From the NCBI GenBank assembly GCA_947169185.1, contig CAMVOS010000005.1, positions 31,046 to 95,045 of the forward strand: a stretch of DNA of 64,000 nucleotides, written 5' to 3'. Shown piece after piece: positions 9,382 through 64,000 of the stretch. Under the pieces are notes generated by a model. The model had not been told where the DNA came from. It worked only from the letters and a program-made list of their open reading frames with translations, and did no database searches. The translations under genes and the position numbers were made by a program. Each line of letters starts with the position of its first letter. Positions within the stretch are counted from its first letter, which is position 1. Source of the stretch: an uncultured Prevotella sp. (GTDB lineage Bacteria; Bacteroidota; Bacteroidia; Bacteroidales; Bacteroidaceae).

Positions 9382-10737
9382 ATGGCAAGTAAAACGAAGA
9401 CGAAAACGAAAAAAGAGGGCGGCGAGCACAAGAAGCCTTGGCAGGAGACATATGCCACGCCGGAGGAGATCAAGGCGATGCTGGATAGCCGCGTGTCGCT
9501 ACGGTATAACGAGGTCAGAGGGCGCACAGAGATTCATTGGCGGTCTGCAGGACCGGTGCTCAGAGAGGATGAGCAGGGCCTGTTGACCATCTTCGGGGGT
9601 GACGATGGGGTAACGGACGGCTATACGAATCTGGACGACCGCGACGTCAACACGCTGTGGACGGCATTGTGTCAGGAGAAGCCCGTCATCAAACAGCACC
9701 TCCTGAATGTCATCGAGTCGGACTATGTACCGTCGTACCACCCGTTCCGCTACTATCTGGAGCACCTGCCGCCGTGGACGCCGGAGCAGGGCGACCATAT
9801 CATGGGGCTGTCATTGACCGTGAACGTTAAGGGCGACTCGGACGAGCAGATCCTGTTCTACCAGTACCTGAAGAAGTGGCTGGTGGGCATGGTTGCGTCG
9901 TGGGTCAGTCCGAAGGTGGTGAACAACGTGATGCTCATCCTGATAGGCGAGCAGGGCACATACAAGACCACGTGGTTTGCCAACCTGCTGCCGCCACAGC
10001 TGCGCGACTACTTCTACACGAAGACCGATTCCACCATGCTGTCGAAGGACGACCGCATCGTGCTGGCGCAATACGGGCTGATGTGCTGGGAGGAGCTGGA
10101 CTCCATGTTGCCCAAGGAGCTGAACAAGATGAAGGGAACGATGACCATGCCCTCGATCAACGAACGTAAGGCCTATGCCCGCTACCACGAGAACCTGCCG
10201 CACCTGGCATCGTTCTGTGGTACGGGCAACAACGTGCAGTTCCTGTCGGATGTGACAGGGACACGTCGCTGGCTGCCTTTCGAGGTCGACAGCATCGAGT
10301 CACCCCTGTCGTCGCCCTTCGACTACGACGGCATCTACAGTCAGGCCTACGCACTCTACCAGCAGGGATTCCAATACTGGTTCGACAAGCCCGAGATAGA
10401 ACGCCTGCAGCGACATAACGAACAGTTTGAGACGGTACACTCTGAACTGGAGCTCATCGACCTGCACTTCCGCAAACCAGAGGGCGACGAGCCCAGACAA
10501 CTGATTTCGGCAACGATGGCGCTGCAGATGATTGGCGCCAACATCGCCCAGTCGCTAAGCAAGGAGAGGATAGGCCAGGCCTTCAAACAGCTGGGCTTCG
10601 AGTACCGCCGTAAGACGGCTCAACGTGGCTACATCGCCGTGCACCGCAACGACATGGAGCGGGAGCAGTATCGCCGCAGACTGGCAGAAGAAAACGCTAC
10701 TTCAGCTATGACAGATGACAGCATGACACCCGAATAA
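9382..10737 (+). CDS. VapE/VirE-family P-loop ATPase (virulence-associated E domain)
   Basis: Walker A-like LILIGEQGTYKTTWFANLLPP, acidic CWEELDSM, and GTGNNVQFLSDVTGTRRWLPFEV typical of VapE. Confidence 0.9.
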   Translation: MASKTKTKTKKEGGEHKKPWQETYATPEEIKAMLDSRVSLRYNEVRGRTEIHWRSAGPVLREDEQGLLTIFGGDDGVTDGYTNLDDRDVNTLWTALCQEKPVIKQHLLNVIESDYVPSYHPFRYYLEHLPPWTPEQGDHIMGLSLTVNVKGDSDEQILFYQYLKKWLVGMVASWVSPKVVNNVMLILIGEQGTYKTTWFANLLPPQLRDYFYTKTDSTMLSKDDRIVLAQYGLMCWEELDSMLPKELNKMKGTMTMPSINERKAYARYHENLPHLASFCGTGNNVQFLSDVTGTRRWLPFEVDSIESPLSSPFDYDGIYSQAYALYQQGFQYWFDKPEIERLQRHNEQFETVHSELELIDLHFRKPEGDEPRQLISATMALQMIGANIAQSLSKERIGQAFKQLGFEYRRKTAQRGYIAVHRNDMEREQYRRRLAEENATSAMTDDSMTPE

Positions 10738-11220: not shown

Positions 11221-11258
11221 AATAAACGCCGCTTATTTTGCGATAAGCGGCGTTTATT
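11221..11258. terminator. Bidirectional terminator
   Basis: Perfect 16-bp stem AATAAACGCCGCTTAT / ATAAGCGGCGTTTATT between convergent ORFs. Confidence 0.85.
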
Positions 11259-11276
11259 TGTCGACAGACCGTAGAG

Positions 11277-11480
11277 TCAGGCCGGACGGCCGATGGCATG
11301 GAAGATGCGGTCTACCTCGATGGGCAGGAAGGTGCGACGACCAGTAGTGAGTAGTGGGCTCAATGAGGGATCGTCGGCCATGTAGTCCTTCAGTTTACGC
11401 CAGGCGGCACGACCGCAGATGTTTGGGAAGTAGAGCTGTGCCAGCTCCATACGTCCATAGGTGGGTTTCAGTTCGTTCAT
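11277..11480 (-). CDS. DUF4248-family protein
   Basis: MNELKPTYGRMELAQLYFPNICGRAAWRKLKDYMADDPSLSPLLTTGRRTFLPIEVDRIFHAIG; typical neighbour of VapE/HU/amidase cassettes. Confidence 0.8.
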   Translation of the reverse strand: MNELKPTYGRMELAQLYFPNICGRAAWRKLKDYMADDPSLSPLLTTGRRTFLPIEVDRIFHAIGRPA

Positions 11481-11646
11481 TGTGATGATTTTTATTGCTT
11501 TTATATAGTCACAAAGGTACGAAAAAAACATGAGAAACACAAGCTTTTCTAGCGGAAAATGTGACCATAAGTGACATCATTTTTCCACAAGTTTTTGCAA
11601 GTGATATGGCTCACTGAAAAGGCTTGCAAAACGCCATCTTTTGTTG

Positions 11647-11676
11647 TACCTTTGCGATGCATTTGAGATGCATCGC
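11647..11676 (+). promoter_or_regulatory. -7 box TACCTTTG followed by 5'-end hairpin
   Basis: TACCTTTG at 11647-11654, then GCGATGCAT-TTGAG-ATGCATCGC (11654-11676, perfect 9-bp arms). Confidence 0.6.
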
Positions 11677-11756
11677 GAGTGAAGGCTGCGGCTCAGCATA
11701 GCTCGAGCGAGCTCGGCTCTGCGTTCGCCTTGCACTTCACTTGCATCACGCCGGAC

Positions 11757-11877
11757 GAGCGATAAGCAGACGACCCGCGAGCGATAAGCTCGATGGCCAC
11801 GAGCGATAAGCGGAAGCGGGGGAAGCGATAAGCACGCGGGGCAGAAGCGATAAGCACGTGAGGCGTGAGCGACAAGC
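11757..11877 (+). repeat. Six-copy short repeat array, exact 22-bp period
   Basis: Core RAGCGAYAAGC at 11757, 11779, 11801, 11823, 11845, 11867, separated by 11-bp variable halves. Confidence 0.95.
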
Positions 11878-11913: not shown

Positions 11914-12549
11914 ATGGCAGTAAACAAAATTTCGATGGGTATCAACTACCGCAAGAAGACGAACAGTCGCATGACGGGTAGTGGCAACTACTTTGCCGAG
12001 GTAGACCGCCGTGAGACACTGACCACACGCGGTCTGGCCGAACACCTGAAGGACCACGGCTGTCTGGCCGGTCTCGACGCCATCCAGGCTGTGCTGGTGA
12101 AGATATCGCAGTGCGTACCCGAGCTGGTGGCTCAGGGCATCGGTGTCAAGCTGGACGGACTGGGCATCTTCTACCCAACCATCAAGAACAAGAAGGGCGG
12201 AGCCACCGAGGCACAGATGCTGGACAAGGAATTCAACCCGACATCGCTGATTGAGGGCGTACACGTGCGCTTCTCGCCTGAGTCGTCTGACCTGGACAAC
12301 ATCACCTCGAAACAGTTCCTGACGCGCAGTGTGACAGCCGCTTCAGAGAATATCGTAAAGGCCGTGGAGCGTATCATCAACGGCAAGACACGTAAGATCC
12401 GTACCGTGGTAAGCCTTGAGGATTTCCGCAATCCAAGTGGCAGTAGCAGCGGTAACGAAGGCGGGGGTACGAACGCCGGGGGTACGAACAGCGGAAGTGG
12501 CGACAATCAGGGCGGTAACACTGGTGGCGGCGAAGAAGGCGGAATGTAA
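11914..12549 (+). CDS. HU-like DNA-binding protein with glycine-rich C-terminal tail
   Basis: HU-type fold region (VQAVLVKISQCVPELVAQGIGVKLDGLGIFYPTI); tail SGSSSGNEGGGTNAGGTNSGSGDNQGGNTGGGEEGGM. Confidence 0.88.
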   Translation: MAVNKISMGINYRKKTNSRMTGSGNYFAEVDRRETLTTRGLAEHLKDHGCLAGLDAIQAVLVKISQCVPELVAQGIGVKLDGLGIFYPTIKNKKGGATEAQMLDKEFNPTSLIEGVHVRFSPESSDLDNITSKQFLTRSVTAASENIVKAVERIINGKTRKIRTVVSLEDFRNPSGSSSGNEGGGTNAGGTNSGSGDNQGGNTGGGEEGGM

Positions 12550-12569: not shown

Positions 12570-12671
12570 ATGAGGAAAGAAACTTGGAAACAGATTGTGC
12601 AGATCATCATCACGATTCTGACAGCAATTAGTTCAACAGTATTGGTACAGTCATGCGGACTATTACATTAA
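12570..12671 (+). CDS. smalltalk-family micro-protein (33 aa)
   Basis: MRKETWKQIVQIIITILTAISSTVLVQSCGLLH*; position between HU and amidase matches the family; absent from the supplied ORF track. Confidence 0.85.
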   Translation: MRKETWKQIVQIIITILTAISSTVLVQSCGLLH

Positions 12672-13072
12672 TCATTGTTCATTGCAGTGCGGTATGGCCC
12701 AACCAGACGTCATCGGCCAAGCAGATAGATGAGTGGCATAAGGACCGAGGATTCAAATGCATCGGCTACCACTACGTCATCCGTCGTGACGGAACAATAG
12801 AGCTGGGACGTCCGGAATGGCAGGTCGGTGCCCACTGCGTGAACCACAACGCCCACTCGATAGGCATCTGCTATGAGGGTGGCTTGGACATCCGCGGTCA
12901 ACCCGCCGACACACGAACGGCTGAACAGCGGCAGACCATGCGACGGCTACTCGAAGAGCTGCATGAGCGTTACCCCCGCGCCATGATAGTCGGGCATCAC
13001 GACCTATATCCCCCCAAGCGGTGCCCCTGCTTCGATGCAACCCATGAATATAAAGACTTGCAGCCAAACTAG
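12653..13072 (+). CDS. N-acetylmuramoyl-L-alanine amidase (Amidase_2 / T7-lysozyme-like)
   Basis: IIVHCSAV, GYHYVIRRDGTIELGRPEWQVGAHCVNHNAHSIGICYEGG, VGHHDLYPPKRCPCFDA. Confidence 0.92.
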   Translation: MRTITLIIVHCSAVWPNQTSSAKQIDEWHKDRGFKCIGYHYVIRRDGTIELGRPEWQVGAHCVNHNAHSIGICYEGGLDIRGQPADTRTAEQRQTMRRLLEELHERYPRAMIVGHHDLYPPKRCPCFDATHEYKDLQPN

Positions 13073-13115: not shown

Positions 13116-14987
13116 TTACTTAAACGGCAGATACCACTTCGACTCATCTTCTAAGCCACTGGCTTTGAAGGCCAGTTTCTTGGCCAGCCATTGGCTTCCG
13201 AAATTACCGCTATAAAGACCTGCACGGTTCTTACTGCGGGCCATACGGCAGAGGTCATAGAAGCGACTACCTTCAAAGGAGAGTTCCAAGGCATATTCGT
13301 CACAAAGGATGTCCTCTACGGCATTGATGGTGTCCTGCTTGGTTGTACCAACAGCTACATTAAAGTCTTTTTTAATCTCAGCCATCTTATTGCTGACGAC
13401 AACATCGAGCTGATAGGGCGATAGACCTGGGATATAAGTCGCACTATATTTTCCTTCGCTTAAAGGAGATAGGTCGATGTCACGAGTAATACCGGCACCA
13501 TGACCATGAATACCTATAAAAGCAGTGATATAACGCCATTTAGCGATATTAGCTTCCGACAACAAAGGATAGGTGGTCTGTAAGGCTGTCTGTGTTTCAG
13601 AAGTGATATAAGGAGCCACTAACAGTCCTTCGTTGACACCATCCTTCAGAATGGCAAAGGCTGCATCATACATGCCTAAGCGGTTGAAGGCCTCAGCCAA
13701 ATGGAGCCATACTGTAGACTTTCGATAGAGCACAACCCTAGGATAACGATATTTCGTAGTCCATGTCTTAACAGAGTCGCCCTGCGAACGGTCCGTCTGA
13801 ATACCTGACAGACGGGTATCACCAATCTTAGTAGCATGAACCACAGGATCGTTACCAGAAGTGATGGCATTATAATAGTAGTCTTGAGCATTGCTCAGTG
13901 CCACATAGCTATCACTAGGCTCTATCTGTACCTCTTCAATAAATGCTGGGCTATTGGCATAATAGTCATAGCCAAAGGCCTGAGGCAGGGTAGTAATAGC
14001 TCCCTGGCGACTGTTAGCATTAAGAGGGATATAAGTAATCAGGTCATAATTACCGTCACCAAAGATACTTGACCATGTACCCAAATTCCCCAGCTGGTTA
14101 TCATCTTTCCAATCACTGGGCAGTTCGTCACCAATAACGCGGAAGCCACCACGACGGCGTCCGGAATACGACTGAGTATAGGATGAGAAGGGATTGTCAG
14201 ACACCTCAGTAAAATAAGTAACATAATGCTTAGCTGCATTGCTATAGTCACCTGTCTCCAAATACATATCACCCAATATCACATCAACAGGAATAAAGAC
14301 ATATCCCGTATAGAATGCGCTGTTGTTTGGTGTGACATTACCGAAGTTGGGCAGTGTGTACTTATCAGTCTCACCATCAGGTTTGGTAAACTTTCCACCA
14401 GAATACTGCTCCAAATCGGGAGCCAGACGAGCCACTATACCGGCCATATCCAGTTCCTCATACTGACCATTGTCAATCTGTGATATCTGTGTCAAAGGCT
14501 CGGTATAGAACGGAACCTTCTGATAGACACGAGCCAATTGCATATATGCCCAGGCACGGATGGCTTTCACACCAACATATTCGCCCATAGCAACATATTG
14601 AGAACCATCACGCAATGTCGTATCACGGTGAGCAATATAGTAATTACAGTTATTAATCACGCGATAATATACGTAAGCAGAATCATAACGGTTTGCTGTC
14701 GTTGCCGTAAAGTTAGCCAACTGACGGAGGTTATTGTCTGTATAGTTGGTAACCTTGGTCAAGTCACCGCGCATCTCACCTTGATAGACATAGCAGTCAG
14801 CCAGTTCCTGCATACCCTGCAATATACCCAAGGAGAAGAATATAGAGTCTGTCTTACTGTTCAGGTCAGGATTGAAGACCTGACGGGAACTGTCACTCTC
14901 CAGCATATCGGAACACGACACCATTGATGTTAGCATGGAGCAGCCAACCAGACAACCGCAGAAAAATTTAAATATCTTAGTAATCAT
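13116..14987 (-). CDS. SusD/RagB-like nutrient-binding lipoprotein
   Basis: Lipobox MVSCSD; AYVYYRVINNCNYYIA; C-term CDEYALELSFEGSRFYDLCRMAR...WYLPFK. Confidence 0.9.
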   Translation of the reverse strand: MITKIFKFFCGCLVGCSMLTSMVSCSDMLESDSSRQVFNPDLNSKTDSIFFSLGILQGMQELADCYVYQGEMRGDLTKVTNYTDNNLRQLANFTATTANRYDSAYVYYRVINNCNYYIAHRDTTLRDGSQYVAMGEYVGVKAIRAWAYMQLARVYQKVPFYTEPLTQISQIDNGQYEELDMAGIVARLAPDLEQYSGGKFTKPDGETDKYTLPNFGNVTPNNSAFYTGYVFIPVDVILGDMYLETGDYSNAAKHYVTYFTEVSDNPFSSYTQSYSGRRRGGFRVIGDELPSDWKDDNQLGNLGTWSSIFGDGNYDLITYIPLNANSRQGAITTLPQAFGYDYYANSPAFIEEVQIEPSDSYVALSNAQDYYYNAITSGNDPVVHATKIGDTRLSGIQTDRSQGDSVKTWTTKYRYPRVVLYRKSTVWLHLAEAFNRLGMYDAAFAILKDGVNEGLLVAPYITSETQTALQTTYPLLSEANIAKWRYITAFIGIHGHGAGITRDIDLSPLSEGKYSATYIPGLSPYQLDVVVSNKMAEIKKDFNVAVGTTKQDTINAVEDILCDEYALELSFEGSRFYDLCRMARSKNRAGLYSGNFGSQWLAKKLAFKASGLEDESKWYLPFK

Positions 14988-15022
14988 AATTTCTAATTTC
15001 TAATTTCTAATTCCTAATTCCG
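14988..15022. repeat. Heptamer-like tandem repeat at operon junction
   Basis: AATTTCT-type units between the SusC stop and SusD start. Confidence 0.85.
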
Positions 15023-18382: not shown

Positions 18383-20185
18383 TTACTTCTTGTTTTGTTC
18401 TTCAAATTCTACGAGTTCTTTCGGCTTCAAGATGATGGAAGCAATGCGCAAGTCACGTGTATATGCTTGACGCAGTGCAGCAGTGAATACCGAATACGGC
18501 GTACTAATCTTGATATTAGGGCAATACTCATCACCCAATCCTAGATAGCAGACAGGGAAAGTAAACTCACCAATATAGAGGGTGTCAACCTTCGACGTAT
18601 CGTTCGAGAAAGCACGAATCGTCTGGTGGTTGGCATTAGTCTGGCTGGCATTATCCTTGACGGTTGGGAAACGTGCCTTGAACGCATCAATCTGTGCCTG
18701 GTCAGTATTGAGGAACAACTGATTCTTCAAAGCACCAGACGCATCACAATAATTCAATGTAAAGATAACGCGGTTGGGTGTTGTCACTGCATCCTTCTTC
18801 AGCAGGTCAACATTCTCAGGAACAAACACACAATAGATATCGTAGGTCGTACTCTGTACGTTACGCAAATAGAATGTCATCTCCGGTTTGATATACTCGT
18901 TACCACCAGTGGGTTCCACATGATAGTAGCTGAGTGTGGTAGCGCCGTCTTCCAGTTCTACCTTTTCCTTATTCACATCAATCACGTCGACACGACTACC
19001 CGTACCATTGGATATCAAGGCACGGTTGTCTGCCCTTGTAGCATTTATAACACGCTCTGGAGCATAGGTTTCCCACGAATACATGCCATAGTCGTTAACA
19101 ACACGTCCAGTACCATTACTGAATTTCACAGTCTTCACGGTCTTATCCAGAATTTCCTGAGGATTCGACAGTTTGGTGTATAGTGTCGTCCGCAAAGTAT
19201 CACTGCCTAAGGCTGATGGGGTTCCATTAAGCCAACGGTTATAGACATCATTGTTGCTATATGCCAAGACGCTGGTTAATGCTCTATTCGTCAAAGAATC
19301 CTGCCAATAAGCCGCATCGATCGACAACGGTGTCGTGGTAGTTGGCGTAGAACCACTAAACTGCTGAGCGATAGTCTTTGGAGCATACTTGAAGTTCTTT
19401 TTCACCTTGTCATATTGAGCCTTCCAAGCTTCATTGGTGGGCATCAGGAACGTGTATGAACTGTCTTCGCTTTCCATACGAGTATTAAGCATGGCCCATT
19501 GCGTATTCTCTGTAATCATCACTGAGTCTACATAGGTCTGCATACCATTGACAATTGGACCTAACACCGAATGTTCCTCATCAAGATAAGTAATCTCATA
19601 CTTCTTAAGAAATTTACGGAGAGAGTCCACACCTTCCTTGCCAGAGAGTTCTTCGGTCATCAAGTACTCATACAAACTGGGATGATAGGCAGCCATACCA
19701 CTCATGATGTGCATCACACCATTATTACTACCCAGATTGGGCTGTTCTATCTTAACGCCATCAAAGGTATAGTTGTTCTGCGAACCAACAAACTGATATG
19801 ACTTGTCATTCAGCATCAACACACGCTTGTCTATCTGGCCAGAGGCATTATAGCTGTAATCGGCAATATGATTCTCCACAAACTGGCTTAACAGCGACTT
19901 GTTGCTAAGCTGCAGAATGGCGTTAGCATCATAGGTGCCGTCCAAAGGAGCCCATACCGTATAGTAATGGGTTGTGTTCAGCTTCTCGTCGTAGCCAGCT
20001 TTCTTCAATATCGAAGCAAAATTCGACAGCTGCTGATTCTGCTGGATATTCTGCCACAAGGTCTGATTGCCTGCCGGTGTCAGATCAGCAATCTCCTTGT
20101 TATAATCATTGAAATCAGAACATGACGTGGCAGTCAGCATCGTGGCTGCCATCATCATGATTCCTATATATTTATACTTCTTCAT
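18383..20185 (-). CDS. Fasciclin (FAS1)-domain lipoprotein
   Basis: Lipobox LTATSCSD; FAS1-like SNFASILKKAGYDEKLN...YTVWAPLDGTYD...FVENHIADYSY...NGVMHIM. Confidence 0.82.
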   Translation of the reverse strand: MKKYKYIGIMMMAATMLTATSCSDFNDYNKEIADLTPAGNQTLWQNIQQNQQLSNFASILKKAGYDEKLNTTHYYTVWAPLDGTYDANAILQLSNKSLLSQFVENHIADYSYNASGQIDKRVLMLNDKSYQFVGSQNNYTFDGVKIEQPNLGSNNGVMHIMSGMAAYHPSLYEYLMTEELSGKEGVDSLRKFLKKYEITYLDEEHSVLGPIVNGMQTYVDSVMITENTQWAMLNTRMESEDSSYTFLMPTNEAWKAQYDKVKKNFKYAPKTIAQQFSGSTPTTTTPLSIDAAYWQDSLTNRALTSVLAYSNNDVYNRWLNGTPSALGSDTLRTTLYTKLSNPQEILDKTVKTVKFSNGTGRVVNDYGMYSWETYAPERVINATRADNRALISNGTGSRVDVIDVNKEKVELEDGATTLSYYHVEPTGGNEYIKPEMTFYLRNVQSTTYDIYCVFVPENVDLLKKDAVTTPNRVIFTLNYCDASGALKNQLFLNTDQAQIDAFKARFPTVKDNASQTNANHQTIRAFSNDTSKVDTLYIGEFTFPVCYLGLGDEYCPNIKISTPYSVFTAALRQAYTRDLRIASIILKPKELVEFEEQNKK

Positions 20186-20186
20186 A

Positions 20187-20215
20187 ATCTTTAATCTTTA
20201 ATCTTTAATCTTTCA
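20187..20215. repeat. Heptamer tandem repeat (CTTTAAT)n at operon junction
   Basis: ATCTTTAATCTTTAATCTTTAATCTTTC between the two FAS1 genes. Confidence 0.85.
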
Positions 20216-20222
20216 TCTCAGA

Positions 20223-22340: not shown

Positions 22341-24125
22341 TTAATAATTCTTACTATAATCATCAGAAGATTTGTATTCTGGATTCTGACGCAACAGCGG
22401 ACTAACCTTCAACTCTGTCAAAGAAATAGGCAGATAAAGACGTCCCTCGTTATTCATCTTGGCAGCCACAGCATTACCCTTGGCACCCAGCTTGCGTTTC
22501 ATCAAGTCAAGCATGGGCTGATAGGTAGCAACCAGTGTCTTACCATTGTCCTTCTGAACAGCCAGAATAGTGTTATAGTCCACACCTTCAATATGGCGAT
22601 AGTTATAACGCATCAGGTCATACCAGCGCTTGCCCTCGAAAGCCAACTCACGCAGACGCTCTTCCAGAATCAGGGCTTCCAATTTCTCTGCCGTATTATA
22701 GGTGTTCCACTTAATCGTTTCAATAGTGGTCTCACGCGAACGGGTATTCACCTTCTCAACCAATTCAAAAGCAGTCTGTAAGAGTTTGACATCTTCACCG
22801 TCGGGATCCTCATAACCGTCAACAGCCTGTTTTTGGGCCACAATAGCCGTCAATGCCTCTGCCTTCATCATCATGATATCGGGCAGGCGATAAACGATAT
22901 AGTTACTCTTAGCTGATGAGGCGTAGTCCGACAACGTTCCCTTGCTCTCTGCACTCATATTGGTAGAATTGGGCGAATAGTTCGCATTCTGACTGACATA
23001 CTTACGAACCATAAAACCTCCCAATTCTCCTACTGTCTGCGCCGTCTTGCCATTATCGTAAGTATTCATCAAAGCTCTCCAGTCACTGGTGTAGGTACCA
23101 GTCTTATAAACTGTACCGCCAAAGTTGAAGATGTCTGATGCATACAGATAAGGAGCAGAATTATTGCCACCATTATAGTGGTTCAAGTAATGACCATGTC
23201 CGGCATTAAGGTTCGTTGTTCCGTCGAACTGTAACTCAAGGATACTCTCCTCGGCATTCTTGGTAATAAAGAGCGAGCGGAAAGCAGTACGGCCTTCAGC
23301 CAAGGGATAGTCTGGCATCTCTGTCTCACCAAATCCCAACACATGCTGAGCCTTTTTCGAGGCAATGACCTTGTCACAATAAACTATGGCCTGTTCGTAG
23401 TCGGCAGCACTATGATTCACACTGGCACGCCACAAATAGATATCAGCCATCAAAGCCTGAATAGCATCACGGGTAAAATAGCCCACACGGCGCCAGTCAT
23501 TATAAGCACTTGCCAAAATTGCATTCTTCTCTGCAGACTCCAAGTCATTCAGACAGTTGGCCAGCACAACATCAGGAGCCGACTGTGGGATATTTCGGTT
23601 CTGACTACTATTCTTAAAGGCCTCTGTCACGTATGGCACATCACGGAAATTGCGAACCAGATAGAAGTAACACAATGAACGCAAAGCCAACATTTGTGAA
23701 CAATCTGCTAAATAGTCACCTGAAGTATAGGAAGGATCCTCTCCCATCACCTGCTCGGCACTGCTGAGCACCAGGTTACAGTAGTTAATCGTACTATACA
23801 AGTCACCCCAAGTAACAAACTGGTTATCCTCTTGGGTATTAGCCATATTAATCTCTGTCAGATCCTCTACCAAAGAACCAGTAACACTGGCAATTGGTAT
23901 CAATTCATCGGAACGCAGATCACCCCATATCACAAGGCGGGAAATCATATTCTCAGAGAGCATACTACGATAGGCCTGATTGACTATCAGTTGCACATCC
24001 GACTTCTGTTTCCAGAAATCCTCTTCCACCGTCTTATCATCGGGCAGGATGATGGTATCGATGCACGACACCATCAGCAAGGCCGCACATCCGACACACA
24101 TTATTTTATATAATTTGGTAATCAT
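22341..24125 (-). CDS. SusD/RagB-like lipoprotein
   Basis: DDKTVEEDFWKQKSDVQLIVNQAYRSM...LRSLCYFYLVRNFRDVPY...ILEERLRELAFEGKRWYDLMRY. Confidence 0.95.
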   Translation of the reverse strand: MITKLYKIMCVGCAALLMVSCIDTIILPDDKTVEEDFWKQKSDVQLIVNQAYRSMLSENMISRLVIWGDLRSDELIPIASVTGSLVEDLTEINMANTQEDNQFVTWGDLYSTINYCNLVLSSAEQVMGEDPSYTSGDYLADCSQMLALRSLCYFYLVRNFRDVPYVTEAFKNSSQNRNIPQSAPDVVLANCLNDLESAEKNAILASAYNDWRRVGYFTRDAIQALMADIYLWRASVNHSAADYEQAIVYCDKVIASKKAQHVLGFGETEMPDYPLAEGRTAFRSLFITKNAEESILELQFDGTTNLNAGHGHYLNHYNGGNNSAPYLYASDIFNFGGTVYKTGTYTSDWRALMNTYDNGKTAQTVGELGGFMVRKYVSQNANYSPNSTNMSAESKGTLSDYASSAKSNYIVYRLPDIMMMKAEALTAIVAQKQAVDGYEDPDGEDVKLLQTAFELVEKVNTRSRETTIETIKWNTYNTAEKLEALILEERLRELAFEGKRWYDLMRYNYRHIEGVDYNTILAVQKDNGKTLVATYQPMLDLMKRKLGAKGNAVAAKMNNEGRLYLPISLTELKVSPLLRQNPEYKSSDDYSKNY

Positions 24126-24162
24126 AATTTCTAATTACTAATTTCTAATTACTAATATATCA

Positions 24163-32576: not shown

Positions 32577-33953
32577 TCACAAACCTCTGTCCTTACGAAT
32601 CAGCTCGAGCAGTCGGTCGACAGCCTCGGCCTCAGGGATATTCTTCTCAATACATTCCTTGGCCTTATATAGGCTGATTTTGCCACGACCCGCACCGACA
32701 TAACCGTAGTCGGCATCGGCCATCTCGCCAGGACCATTGACAATACAACCCATAATGCCAATTTTCAGGCCCACAAGATCTTTTGTTGCTGCTTTTATCT
32801 TAGCGATGGTTTCCTGGAGGTTATAGAGCGTGCGTCCACAGCCTGGGCAAGAAATATATTCAGTCTTGGTGAATTTGATACGAGCGGCCTGCAATATCGC
32901 GTCGGCAAGAGCCGACAAATTGGGAATTGAGAATTGAGAATTGAGAATTGAGAGTTTGGTGGCTTTGCGGTCGATAAGCAAGGCACCAACAGCCATTGAG
33001 GCCTTGAGTTGCAAGGTCTCCCAATCGGGGGCGTCAATGGCGATGGTAATCGTATCGTCTTTGATGGATGCCTCTGCCTCAGCACGCAGTTTCATGCATT
33101 CGGGAATAAGGTCAACAAGTTTGCGGGCTACTGGGATTTCACATTCGGGCTCCTCGCTGAGCGACACACGAATGGTATCGCCAATACCCTCGGTAAGCAA
33201 GGCACCAATACCAACAGCCGACTTAATACGTCCGTCTTTTCCCTCACCAGCCTCAGTGACACCTAAGTGCAGGGGGTAGTGCATATCCTCGGCATCCATG
33301 GTCTTGACGAGCAAGCGCACAGTGGTGACCATCACCACCGTATTCGAGGCTTTGATACTGATGACAACATCGTTGAACTGTTCGCGACGGAAGATGCGCA
33401 AAAACTCCATACAGCTCTCAACGATACCCTCAGGGGTGTCACCATAGCGCGACATGATACGATCAGACAGCGAGCCGTGGTTGACACCAATGCGTACAGC
33501 CGTATGGTGTTCCTTACATATATTAATAAAAGGTACGAGCTTGGCTTCAATTTTCTTCAGCTCCTCCAGATATTCTTCGTCAGTATATTCCAAATGCTTA
33601 AAGGTACGTCCCGGATCGACATAGTTACCCGGATTGATACGCACCTTTTCGCAGTATTGGGCTGCCACATCGGCTGTATGGGCCGTAAAATGCACATCAG
33701 CCACAAGGGGAGTCTGGTAGCCATCAGCTTTCAGACGTGCCGAGATATGCTTCATATTCTCAGCCTCACGTGTGCCCTGCGTGGTAAAACGTACCAGTTC
33801 ACCTCCGGCATCAATAATACGCTTGGCCTGCGCCACACTGGCCTCGGTATCGTTGGTATCGGTAGTCGCCATCGACTGAATACGAATGGGATTGTCACCA
33901 CCGATAGCGATATGCCCCACATGGGCCACACTACTAATTCGTCTTGTAGTCAT
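32577..33953 (-). CDS. ispG: (E)-4-hydroxy-3-methylbut-2-enyl-diphosphate synthase
   Basis: IRIQSMATTDTNDTEASVAQAKRI, KVRINPGNY, C-term YISCPGCGRT...GIMGCIVNGPGEMADADYGYVGAG (Fe-S Cys motifs). Confidence 0.95.
   Translation of the reverse strand: MTTRRISSVAHVGHIAIGGDNPIRIQSMATTDTNDTEASVAQAKRIIDAGGELVRFTTQGTREAENMKHISARLKADGYQTPLVADVHFTAHTADVAAQYCEKVRINPGNYVDPGRTFKHLEYTDEEYLEELKKIEAKLVPFINICKEHHTAVRIGVNHGSLSDRIMSRYGDTPEGIVESCMEFLRIFRREQFNDVVISIKASNTVVMVTTVRLLVKTMDAEDMHYPLHLGVTEAGEGKDGRIKSAVGIGALLTEGIGDTIRVSLSEEPECEIPVARKLVDLIPECMKLRAEAEASIKDDTITIAIDAPDWETLQLKASMAVGALLIDRKATKLSILNSQFSIPNLSALADAILQAARIKFTKTEYISCPGCGRTLYNLQETIAKIKAATKDLVGLKIGIMGCIVNGPGEMADADYGYVGAGRGKISLYKAKECIEKNIPEAEAVDRLLELIRKDRGL
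32918..32952. repeat. Heptamer tandem repeat (AATTGRG)x5 inside ispG
   Basis: AATTGGG + 4x AATTGAG; encodes ILNSQFSIPN on the minus strand. Confidence 0.95.
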
Positions 33954-46943: not shown

Positions 46944-48929
46944 ATGAAGAAGGTTTTGGCTATACTTTTCACTTTTCACTGTTCACTGTTCACCACCCCT
47001 GCAGTGGCGCAGTACCAGACGTTTCCCGAACAGATGGAACGTCTCGATCGTGGCATTGTGGTCCTGCCGGCTCAAGAGCAGGGCATCTTCATCAGCTGGC
47101 GCCTGCTGGGCAGTGATCCTAAAGACATCACCTTCGACCTGCAGCGTGACGGCAAGACCATTGCCAAGGGCCTGAAGGTCACCAACTATACCGACAAAAA
47201 GGGAACGGCTAATTCACGTTATAACGTGATAACGTCATCACGTCATAACAACACTTCAACATTTCAAAATAACGAGATATCGTCATCAGGGGTAACCCCC
47301 TGGTCCGACATCTACCGCTCTATTCCCATCGACCGTCCTCAGGACGGCACAACCCCCGATGGCCGCTCCTATCGTTACACCCCTAACGACTGTTCGGTGG
47401 GTGATGTGGATGGCGACGGACAATACGAAATCTTCCTAAAATGGGACCCGTCCAATGCCCACGACAACTCACACGACGGCTATACTGGTGACGTTATCAT
47501 CGACTGCATCCGTCTCGACGGCACCAAGCTATGGAGACTGAACTTGGGTAAAAACATCCGTGCTGGTGCCCACTACACCCAATTCATGGTCTATGACTTC
47601 GACCGCGACGGACATGCCGAGCTGATATGCAAAACGGCACCAGGCTCGCAGGACGGCACAGGTCGCTACGTCACCGAGGCTGCTGACGATGCTGACATCT
47701 TGAACGCTGACAACAATGCAGACTATCGCACCCAACAAGGACGCATCCTCAGTGGTCCCGAATACCTCACCGTCTTCGATGGACGCACCGGTCGTGCCGT
47801 ACATACCATCTACTACCGTCCCAATCGCGCCTTTGGCGTTGGCGGATCGGCCGACTACGACAAACAGGGCTGGGGCGATCGGGCCATGATGGGCAACCGT
47901 GGCGAGCGTTTTCTGGCTGGTGTAGCATGGCTCGACGGACCCAAGAGCCGTCCTTCTGCCGTCATGTGCCGCGGCTACTACACACCATCTCACCTCTGGG
48001 CTGTCGACTTCGATGGCAGAAAACTCACCACCAAGTGGTTCCACGCCTCCACGACGCCCCATGACTACTATGTCGGCGACCGACAAGGCAAACAAACATG
48101 GTATCACAATCTCGCAGCCACTGCCTACGGACAAGGTGCCCATAGCCTCAGCGTGGGTGATGTCGATGGCGACGGCTGTGACGAAATCACCTATGGCTCA
48201 GCAGCCATCAACAACGACGGCACTCTGCTCTACTCCACCGGTTTGGGACATGGTGACGCCTTGCATCTGAGTGACCTCGATCCCGACCATCCCGGTTTGG
48301 AGGTTTTTATGGTACATGAGTCGTACCCCTATGGTGCTGACTTGCGCGATGCCCGTACTGGCGAACGACTGTGGTACGAGACGGCACGCGATGACACAGG
48401 GCGTGGCGTAGCTGCCGACATCGATGGCAACCATCGTGGCTTCGAATTCTGGCATATATTCAACCGTGCCGTACATGACATCAAGGGCAACGTTATCTCC
48501 AACCGCCTGCCCAGCAGTAACTTCCGCATCTACTGGGATGGCGACCTGCAGGACGAGCTGTTGGCCAACCGCGGCCAGCGCCCCCACTTCCCCTCATTCA
48601 TTGAGAAGTGGGACGGCGAAAAGGCCGTACCGTTACCCCTCAGCAACGGCAAACACCTCTACGACATGGGCAATTCGGCTTCCTGCAACTGGACCAAGGC
48701 CACACCCTGTCTGCAAGCCGACCTCTTTGGCGATTGGCGTGAAGAAATCATCCTTTGGGACTCGAGCGATGCTGCACATCTGAACATCTTTACGACCAAT
48801 ATCCCCACGCCCTACACTGTACCTACGCTGATGCACGACAACATCTACCGTCTCTCCATCTGCTGGCAGAACACGGCATACAACCAGCCGCCACACTTGG
48901 GCTACTATCTGCCCGACACACAAAAATAA
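46944..48929 (+). CDS. Rhamnogalacturonan lyase, PL11, lacking C-terminal tail
   Basis: PL11 blocks conserved; ends HLGYYLPDTQK. Confidence 0.93.
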   Translation: MKKVLAILFTFHCSLFTTPAVAQYQTFPEQMERLDRGIVVLPAQEQGIFISWRLLGSDPKDITFDLQRDGKTIAKGLKVTNYTDKKGTANSRYNVITSSRHNNTSTFQNNEISSSGVTPWSDIYRSIPIDRPQDGTTPDGRSYRYTPNDCSVGDVDGDGQYEIFLKWDPSNAHDNSHDGYTGDVIIDCIRLDGTKLWRLNLGKNIRAGAHYTQFMVYDFDRDGHAELICKTAPGSQDGTGRYVTEAADDADILNADNNADYRTQQGRILSGPEYLTVFDGRTGRAVHTIYYRPNRAFGVGGSADYDKQGWGDRAMMGNRGERFLAGVAWLDGPKSRPSAVMCRGYYTPSHLWAVDFDGRKLTTKWFHASTTPHDYYVGDRQGKQTWYHNLAATAYGQGAHSLSVGDVDGDGCDEITYGSAAINNDGTLLYSTGLGHGDALHLSDLDPDHPGLEVFMVHESYPYGADLRDARTGERLWYETARDDTGRGVAADIDGNHRGFEFWHIFNRAVHDIKGNVISNRLPSSNFRIYWDGDLQDELLANRGQRPHFPSFIEKWDGEKAVPLPLSNGKHLYDMGNSASCNWTKATPCLQADLFGDWREEIILWDSSDAAHLNIFTTNIPTPYTVPTLMHDNIYRLSICWQNTAYNQPPHLGYYLPDTQK

Positions 48930-63857: not shown

Positions 63858-63871
63858 CTATTTCGTCCGTC

Positions 63872-63930
63872 CCTACGGACTGCGAGTCCGAAGCCTACGG
63901 ACCGATAGTCCGAAGCCGTCGGACTAGGAG
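63872..63930. repeat. 22-nt-period palindromic repeat cluster
   Basis: CTACGGACTGCGAGTCCGAAGC / CTACGGACCGATAGTCCGAAGC / CGTCGGACTAGGAG; stems CGGACT..AGTCCG and CGGAC..GTCCG. Confidence 0.85.
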
Positions 63931-64000
63931 TTTAGTGCCTTTAAACGGGTCACCTGCATAACCACGTGGATTAGCCAAAGATCTTGACCAGTCTGAAGAT

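Follow-up and report, generated by a model that had tools for sequence, protein, structure and literature searches.

Upstream of an HU-like gene in an uncultured Prevotella sp., a short sequence core recurs at an interval that never varies. What kind of element is this, what might read it, and is it peculiar to one locus? The window considered here is the whole stretch of DNA analyzed, 64,000 nt of contig CAMVOS010000005.1 (positions 31,046 to 95,045, forward strand), and positions given below without a locus handle are counted from its first letter. Its array is one member of a class of arrays with a 22-base step that is widespread in Prevotella.

The Repeat Array and Its Leader

Cores matching RAGCGAYAAGC start at 11757, 11779, 11801, 11823, 11845 and 11867, exactly 22 nt apart, and in the sixth copy C replaces T (GCGACAAGC). 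The six cores and strict step of the original prediction are confirmed by this direct reading and by Tandem Repeats Finder (TRF), which returns a period of 22. The core 10-mer, with at most one mismatch allowed, occurs 21 times in the window compared with 6.6 ± 2.5 in shuffled sequence, and no shuffle reached 21. The halves between the cores had been described as variable, and so they are, but they are not random; a weight matrix built from 41 units of 12 arrays yields a weak consensus, W.R.RRGSCRY, carrying ~6.9 bits over 11 positions as opposed to ~16 bits in the core. Minus-strand ORFs crossing the array match none of the families tested and differ in the orthologue, and the array is therefore taken as noncoding.

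The −7 box that had been proposed is present as TACCTTTG, so the array, which sits between this box and the start of the HU-HIG gene, falls in the 5′ leader (Table 1). The closest orthologue and several paralogues likewise have an array in the leader, and orthologous HU leaders contain 6, 5 and 4 copies, whole 22-nt units having been gained or lost. The ~90-nt palindrome between promoter and array is missing from the orthologue in G198 and from the leader of the MAG RGIG4794; a second, partial copy with 78% identity is found elsewhere in the genome, at L301 (G000:C2:104923-104991). In RGIG4794 (L051 160-340) the HU gene is almost wholly deleted, and a four-unit array and the Gly-rich tail remain.

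Table 1. Features of the window around the array, with the second 22-nt array.
Feature	Position	Strand	Basis
VapE-like gene, upstream	9382..10737	+	PF05272 E=4e-34
DUF4248 gene, divergent neighbor	11277..11504	-	PF14053 E=7e-11
TAnnTTTG (-7) promoter box	11647..11654	+	Sequence; HU leaders of other species have this box in the matching position
Imperfect palindrome of ~90 nt, an insertion that separates promoter from array	11657..11748	+	Fold; orthologue comparison
Array of six units with core RAGCGAYAAGC at an exact 22-nt period	11757..11877	+	Sequence, TRF, pattern scan
The 11-nt spacers, five in all, with weak conservation across core family	11768..11866	+	41-unit weight matrix
HU-HIG gene encoding a candidate array-binding protein (HU/IHF fold, Gly-rich tail)	11914..12549	+	PF18291 E=2e-11
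Smalltalk protein gene	12570..12671	+	NF033879 E=6e-10
Amidase_2 (N-acetylmuramoyl-L-alanine amidase) gene	12653..13072	+	PF01510 E=1e-18
Second 22-nt array, sequence-unrelated, palindromic unit CCTACGGACTGAGAGTCCGAAG	63866..63931	.	TRF, lag scan

The gene behind the array belongs to the HU-HIG clade (PF18291) of the HU/IHF family. Its product scores 44.4 bits against PF18291, above the cut-off of 26.2, and the AlphaFold model has an HU/IHF fold (pLDDT 81.6) for which Foldseek places 4fmr (Bacteroides vulgatus BVU_2165) first among PDB folds, followed by HU and IHF chains. Searches of the open-access literature returned neither a function for HU-HIG proteins nor a description of 22-bp arrays in their leaders.

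Other repeats were seen in the window. A terminator-like hairpin upstream (11230-11262) contains GCGATAAGCGGC, which is near the array core, possibly by chance. Tandem heptamers lie at 14987-15019, 20185-20218, 24125-24156, 32918-32953 and 46964-46993, two of them directly upstream of start codons in a SusC/SusD-like gene set. The second 22-nt array is akin to arrays elsewhere in its own genome and in G198 (L213:12543; L240:16203).

Dispersal of the Core on a 22-nt Grid

The original prediction could be checked by a search for the 11-bp core at 22-bp spacing in Bacteroidetes genomes, and this arrangement recurs at many intergenic loci of related Prevotella. A core pair at 22-nt spacing is present at three loci in the window's own genome, in G083 and G198, in other Prevotella MAGs and in Mediterranea sp. 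An20, and a search with a single core reveals more loci still. With a free spacing (N9-15 between 9-mers), the gap was still exactly 13 nt in each of the 27 adjacent core pairs of G000, G083 and G198, and the spacers of the family share just 48% identity. The core occurs in both orientations, inverted cores (GCTTATCGC) occupying the same 22-nt grid, and both the neighboring genes and the orientation to them vary from locus to locus. In An20 (L173-L202) the core pair lies in a dispersed element of ~205 nt whose interior consists of 22-nt modules; about seven copies have both of its terminal inverted repeats (AAGTGATTTAAACTTT) in recognizable form. Matches in a Vibrio, a cyanobacterium, an acidobacterium and a planctomycete were set aside as resembling unrelated tandem repeats, and GCGACAAGC arrays in G053 and G065, made of 7-8-nt subunits, were left out of the core family.

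A Common Step with Unrelated Units

The general feature is the 22-nt step rather than the 11-bp core, which goes beyond what had been predicted. Samples from six Prevotella genomes (1.16 Mb) were scanned for self-matches, a hit needing 28 or more matches in a window of 44 nt once low-complexity sequence had been removed, with coding and noncoding DNA assigned from simple ORFs in what are mostly MAGs. Noncoding hits numbered 29 at lag 22, 20 at lag 44 and 5 at lag 66. Lags 21, 42 and 23 gave 5, 4 and 1 hits, respectively, and the mean at other lags was 0.55; non-harmonic lags had a maximum of 2 hits each, lag 21 (5) excepted. Lags in coding DNA were mainly multiples of 3 in the same scan. The units of the lag-22 arrays are unrelated in sequence from locus to locus, and dyad-symmetric units occur in about half of the arrays. 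Five true 21-nt arrays and one 23-nt array are also present, and the mean step is therefore ~21.9. Among short noncoding tandem repeats in Prevotella, 46 have a period of 7 nt and 15 of 8 nt, and the remaining lags between 4 and 21 have few.

Arrays with this step were also found in other genera of the family and once in another family of Bacteroidia; there were none in 50 kb of E. coli or in the remaining samples of distant Bacteroidota. Like REP/BIME and other palindromic repeats, these are dispersed intergenic units, often palindromic; REPs, however, form one or a few sequence families per genome, whereas the Prevotella units are unrelated and have the step alone in common. Two structural accounts were tried and rejected: outside arrays, the spacing of palindromes has merely a small excess at multiples of 22, which does not amount to a structural grid, and the array units have no 11-nt A+T harmonic of the kind that DNA curvature at 11 bp would give. 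In G083 (L137 980-1240, minus strand) a further 22-nt family (AAGTCATCTACAAGGTCTTCCG) supplies the arms of a long inverted repeat; it is also seen upstream of an HU-HIG gene in G591 (L348).

Association with HU-HIG Genes

The link between the array and HU-family genes suggested for the window holds across genomes. HU-HIG genes were gathered by DNA search (leader plus HU start) and then by protein search, and comprise 47 distinct genes from several genomes, each with at least 150 nt upstream and some at related paralogous loci; 259 ORFs preceded by 150 nt or more of intergenic DNA served as controls. With an array taken as a lag-22 score of 26/44 or higher in the 300 nt upstream, arrays precede 19 of the 47 HU-HIG genes compared with 9 of the 259 controls (OR 18.8, p = 2.5e-11, phylogeny ignored). 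The proportion is 17/45 without the two ascertained loci and 13/41 without the entire window clade (p = 2e-7, phylogeny likewise ignored), and about a dozen unrelated unit sequences are represented. The array is not absent from HU/smalltalk/amidase cassettes other than that of the window.

Particular units recur at HU-HIG leaders and beyond them. One unit in G003 has 7 matches in that genome, one of them at an HU-HIG leader, and in another G003 unit family three of four matches lie 83-86 nt upstream of HU-HIG paralogues. In G000 the unit GCGATAAGC is found at an HU-HIG leader and elsewhere in the same genome, and the leader unit of G198 C17 resembles the array at L240:14528. Some Bacteroidales have dozens of HU-HIG genes, 23-40 per genome in four of the genomes used and 65 in another; matches reach 65, 40 and 30 per genome in the expansions of G290, G083 and G003. 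From genome to genome, array density goes up with the number of HU-HIG genes, a trend that is weak inside the family.

Within the window clade, the HU leader unit can be written as GC-N5-GC and a further 13 nt. The five inner bases of the core are homogeneous inside the arrays of the window, G198 and G000 C18 (0.93-1.00), and less so in the more divergent leaders G007 C19 and G182 (0.60 and 0.52). Between the window and G000 C18, a paralogue leader of the same genome, inner core identity is 0.20, while spacers give a best match of 0.62 compared with 0.40 when shuffled. A paralogue of the window HU has a leader array of its own, GCTCGGAGC. In related HU leaders the inner five bases thereby change jointly in all units of an array, with the spacers staying recognizable. 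HU proteins with the same core are at least 85% identical and those with different cores less so, the exception being G000 C22, a near-identical paralogue that has no array. Co-inheritance of gene and leader is also expected to place the same array type beside near-identical HU proteins.

Competing Explanations

Part of the original interpretation is supported, namely an iteron-like array with its sites on one face of the helix at two-turn spacing, its place in the HU leader and its link to HU-family genes; the two other roles then offered, a repeated RNA motif and a relic of an origin or partition site, are not. Action at the RNA level, by which the HU mRNA leader would govern stability or translation through a long hairpin or a recurring motif, is improbable. 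The array does lie within the leader, 22 nt spans two turns of A-form RNA, and a single hairpin with facing cores is predicted for the window, the G198 orthologue and RGIG4794, with folding z-scores of −2.3 (276-nt fold) or −1.5 (leader only) for the window and −3.2 for G198. Pairing among the spacers of one array, however, is no better than when the spacers come from other arrays (combined z −0.3), and palindromic arrays have no strand bias of G-U over A-C (p = 0.23), and because of these two results the RNA motif is not supported; on the same tests, an RNA hairpin with facing internal loops was rejected as a conserved feature. The covarying or co-adapted pairing that marks a structured RNA leader was not found, and core-family members lie in any orientation relative to genes. 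Taken together, the failed pairing and G-U/A-C tests, a G182 leader array that does not fold (z +1.2) and an Rfam search in which no family matched point to DNA. As a DNA element, the array resembles plasmid iterons: six direct repeats run head to tail about two helical turns apart, the core of each is conserved and the remainder variable, and the adjoining DNA-binding gene may be autoregulated. Iterons of 22 bp exist on plasmids, and a VapE-like gene, which could be a remnant replication gene, lies 1 kb upstream. That the locus is what remains of the origin or partition site of a plasmid, phage or satellite is nonetheless very improbable, since the array belongs to a family dispersed over many chromosomal loci with varied neighbors and the leader and HU gene have no phage or plasmid match. 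Viral contigs searched for the core pair held none, which together with the absent phage and plasmid matches speaks against a mobile replicon, and, unlike plasmid iterons, the family has both orientations on one grid and is found without origin features or a Rep initiator, the window neighbors being VapE-like, DUF4248, HU-HIG, smalltalk and amidase genes.

The main rival is a minisatellite like BrickBuilt that has no function at the HU gene, lying in or derived from a small MITE-like mobile element and expanded by slippage, its step inherited from ancestral elements or set by the manner of copying; this is doubtful, yet a serious possibility. BrickBuilt of P. gingivalis consists of 23-nt tandem repeats in 19 intergenic copies with long stem-loops (PMC4596501), and the likeness is considerable: both occur in Bacteroidales, have short tandem units with conserved and variable halves, are intergenic and multi-copy and are predicted to form long stem-loops (in the window family, not beyond what its composition gives), and one listed BrickBuilt copy adjoins an HU-family (PF00216) gene (PMC4596501). 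The dispersed An20 element with its terminal inverted repeats and 22-nt modules, the gain and loss of whole units between orthologues and the dyad symmetry of about half the arrays all fit such an origin. BrickBuilt differs in being a single sequence family with a 23-nt unit and a leader and tail that end in inverted repeats, and neither a sequence-independent step nor a general HU link is described for it (PMC4596501); the Prevotella unit, set apart by its length and not by alignment, is 22 nt in 27/27 intervals. Terminal inverted repeats are present in part of the An20 copies, but none were noticed on reading the window array or its orthologue, and flanks differ between loci. Spacing that stays unchanged over those 27 intervals as spacers fall to 48% identity is unlikely without constraint, and a neutral repeat does not predict enrichment in HU-HIG leaders. 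A mutational ruler, that is, a copying or repair activity whose duplications come in set lengths of 22 nt (and 7-8 nt) and could turn any sequence into such an array, would account for unrelated units with one common step and for short repeats quantized at 7 and 8 nt. It predicts neither the enrichment upstream of HU-HIG genes nor cores that stay identical while spacers drift, and the true 21- and 23-nt arrays are easier to reconcile with some tolerance around two turns than with a fixed ruler; it is unlikely.

A Possible Role for HU-HIG Proteins

The explanation favored here, tentatively, is an iteron-like DNA array that an HU/IHF-like protein would read at two-turn pitch, with autoregulation at the HU-HIG leader. 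The array would be a series of DNA sites 22 bp apart, the pitch conserved throughout the class and the unit sequence varying by family. An HU/IHF-like protein, most simply the product of the adjoining HU-HIG gene, would bind side by side on one face of the DNA, and at the leader this may regulate its own gene by roadblock or looping; dispersed arrays with the same core could be further sites of the same protein. The enrichment before HU-HIG genes suggests that these proteins bind the arrays and through them regulate themselves and other sites, and it is from such evidence that we infer binding, cognate specificity and autoregulation. Besides that enrichment, the fixed spacing, inverted cores on the grid, the pitch of the class, recurring unit families, core switching and the HU/IHF fold speak for reading by HU-HIG proteins. 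Against it count the 27 of 29 bulk lag-22 arrays that are not near an HU-HIG gene (2/29 are), the more than half of HU-HIG genes that have no such array upstream and the weak correlation, within the family, of array density with HU-HIG gene number (Spearman 0.46, p = 0.03; genome permutation p = 0.08). G083, G591 and An20, which carry GCGATAAGC arrays and include incomplete MAGs, also count against it, as no close orthologue of the window HU was found in them.

If different HU-HIG paralogues read different inner core bases, there would be many unit families with one pitch. Extended to Prevotella and its relatives, this would amount to paralogue-specific DNA addressing, each HU-HIG protein reading its own 22-bp-pitch arrays, at its own gene and dispersed, with cores that switch in concert while the two-turn geometry is kept; as a whole this is speculative and somewhat unlikely. 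Should binding by HU-HIG proteins fail, the fixed step remains an unexplained genome-wide regularity. A 22-bp regularity that is independent of sequence and tied to HU-HIG genes leads to the hypothesis that paralogue-specific, two-turn-phased arrays may organize or regulate the chromosome in these bacteria.
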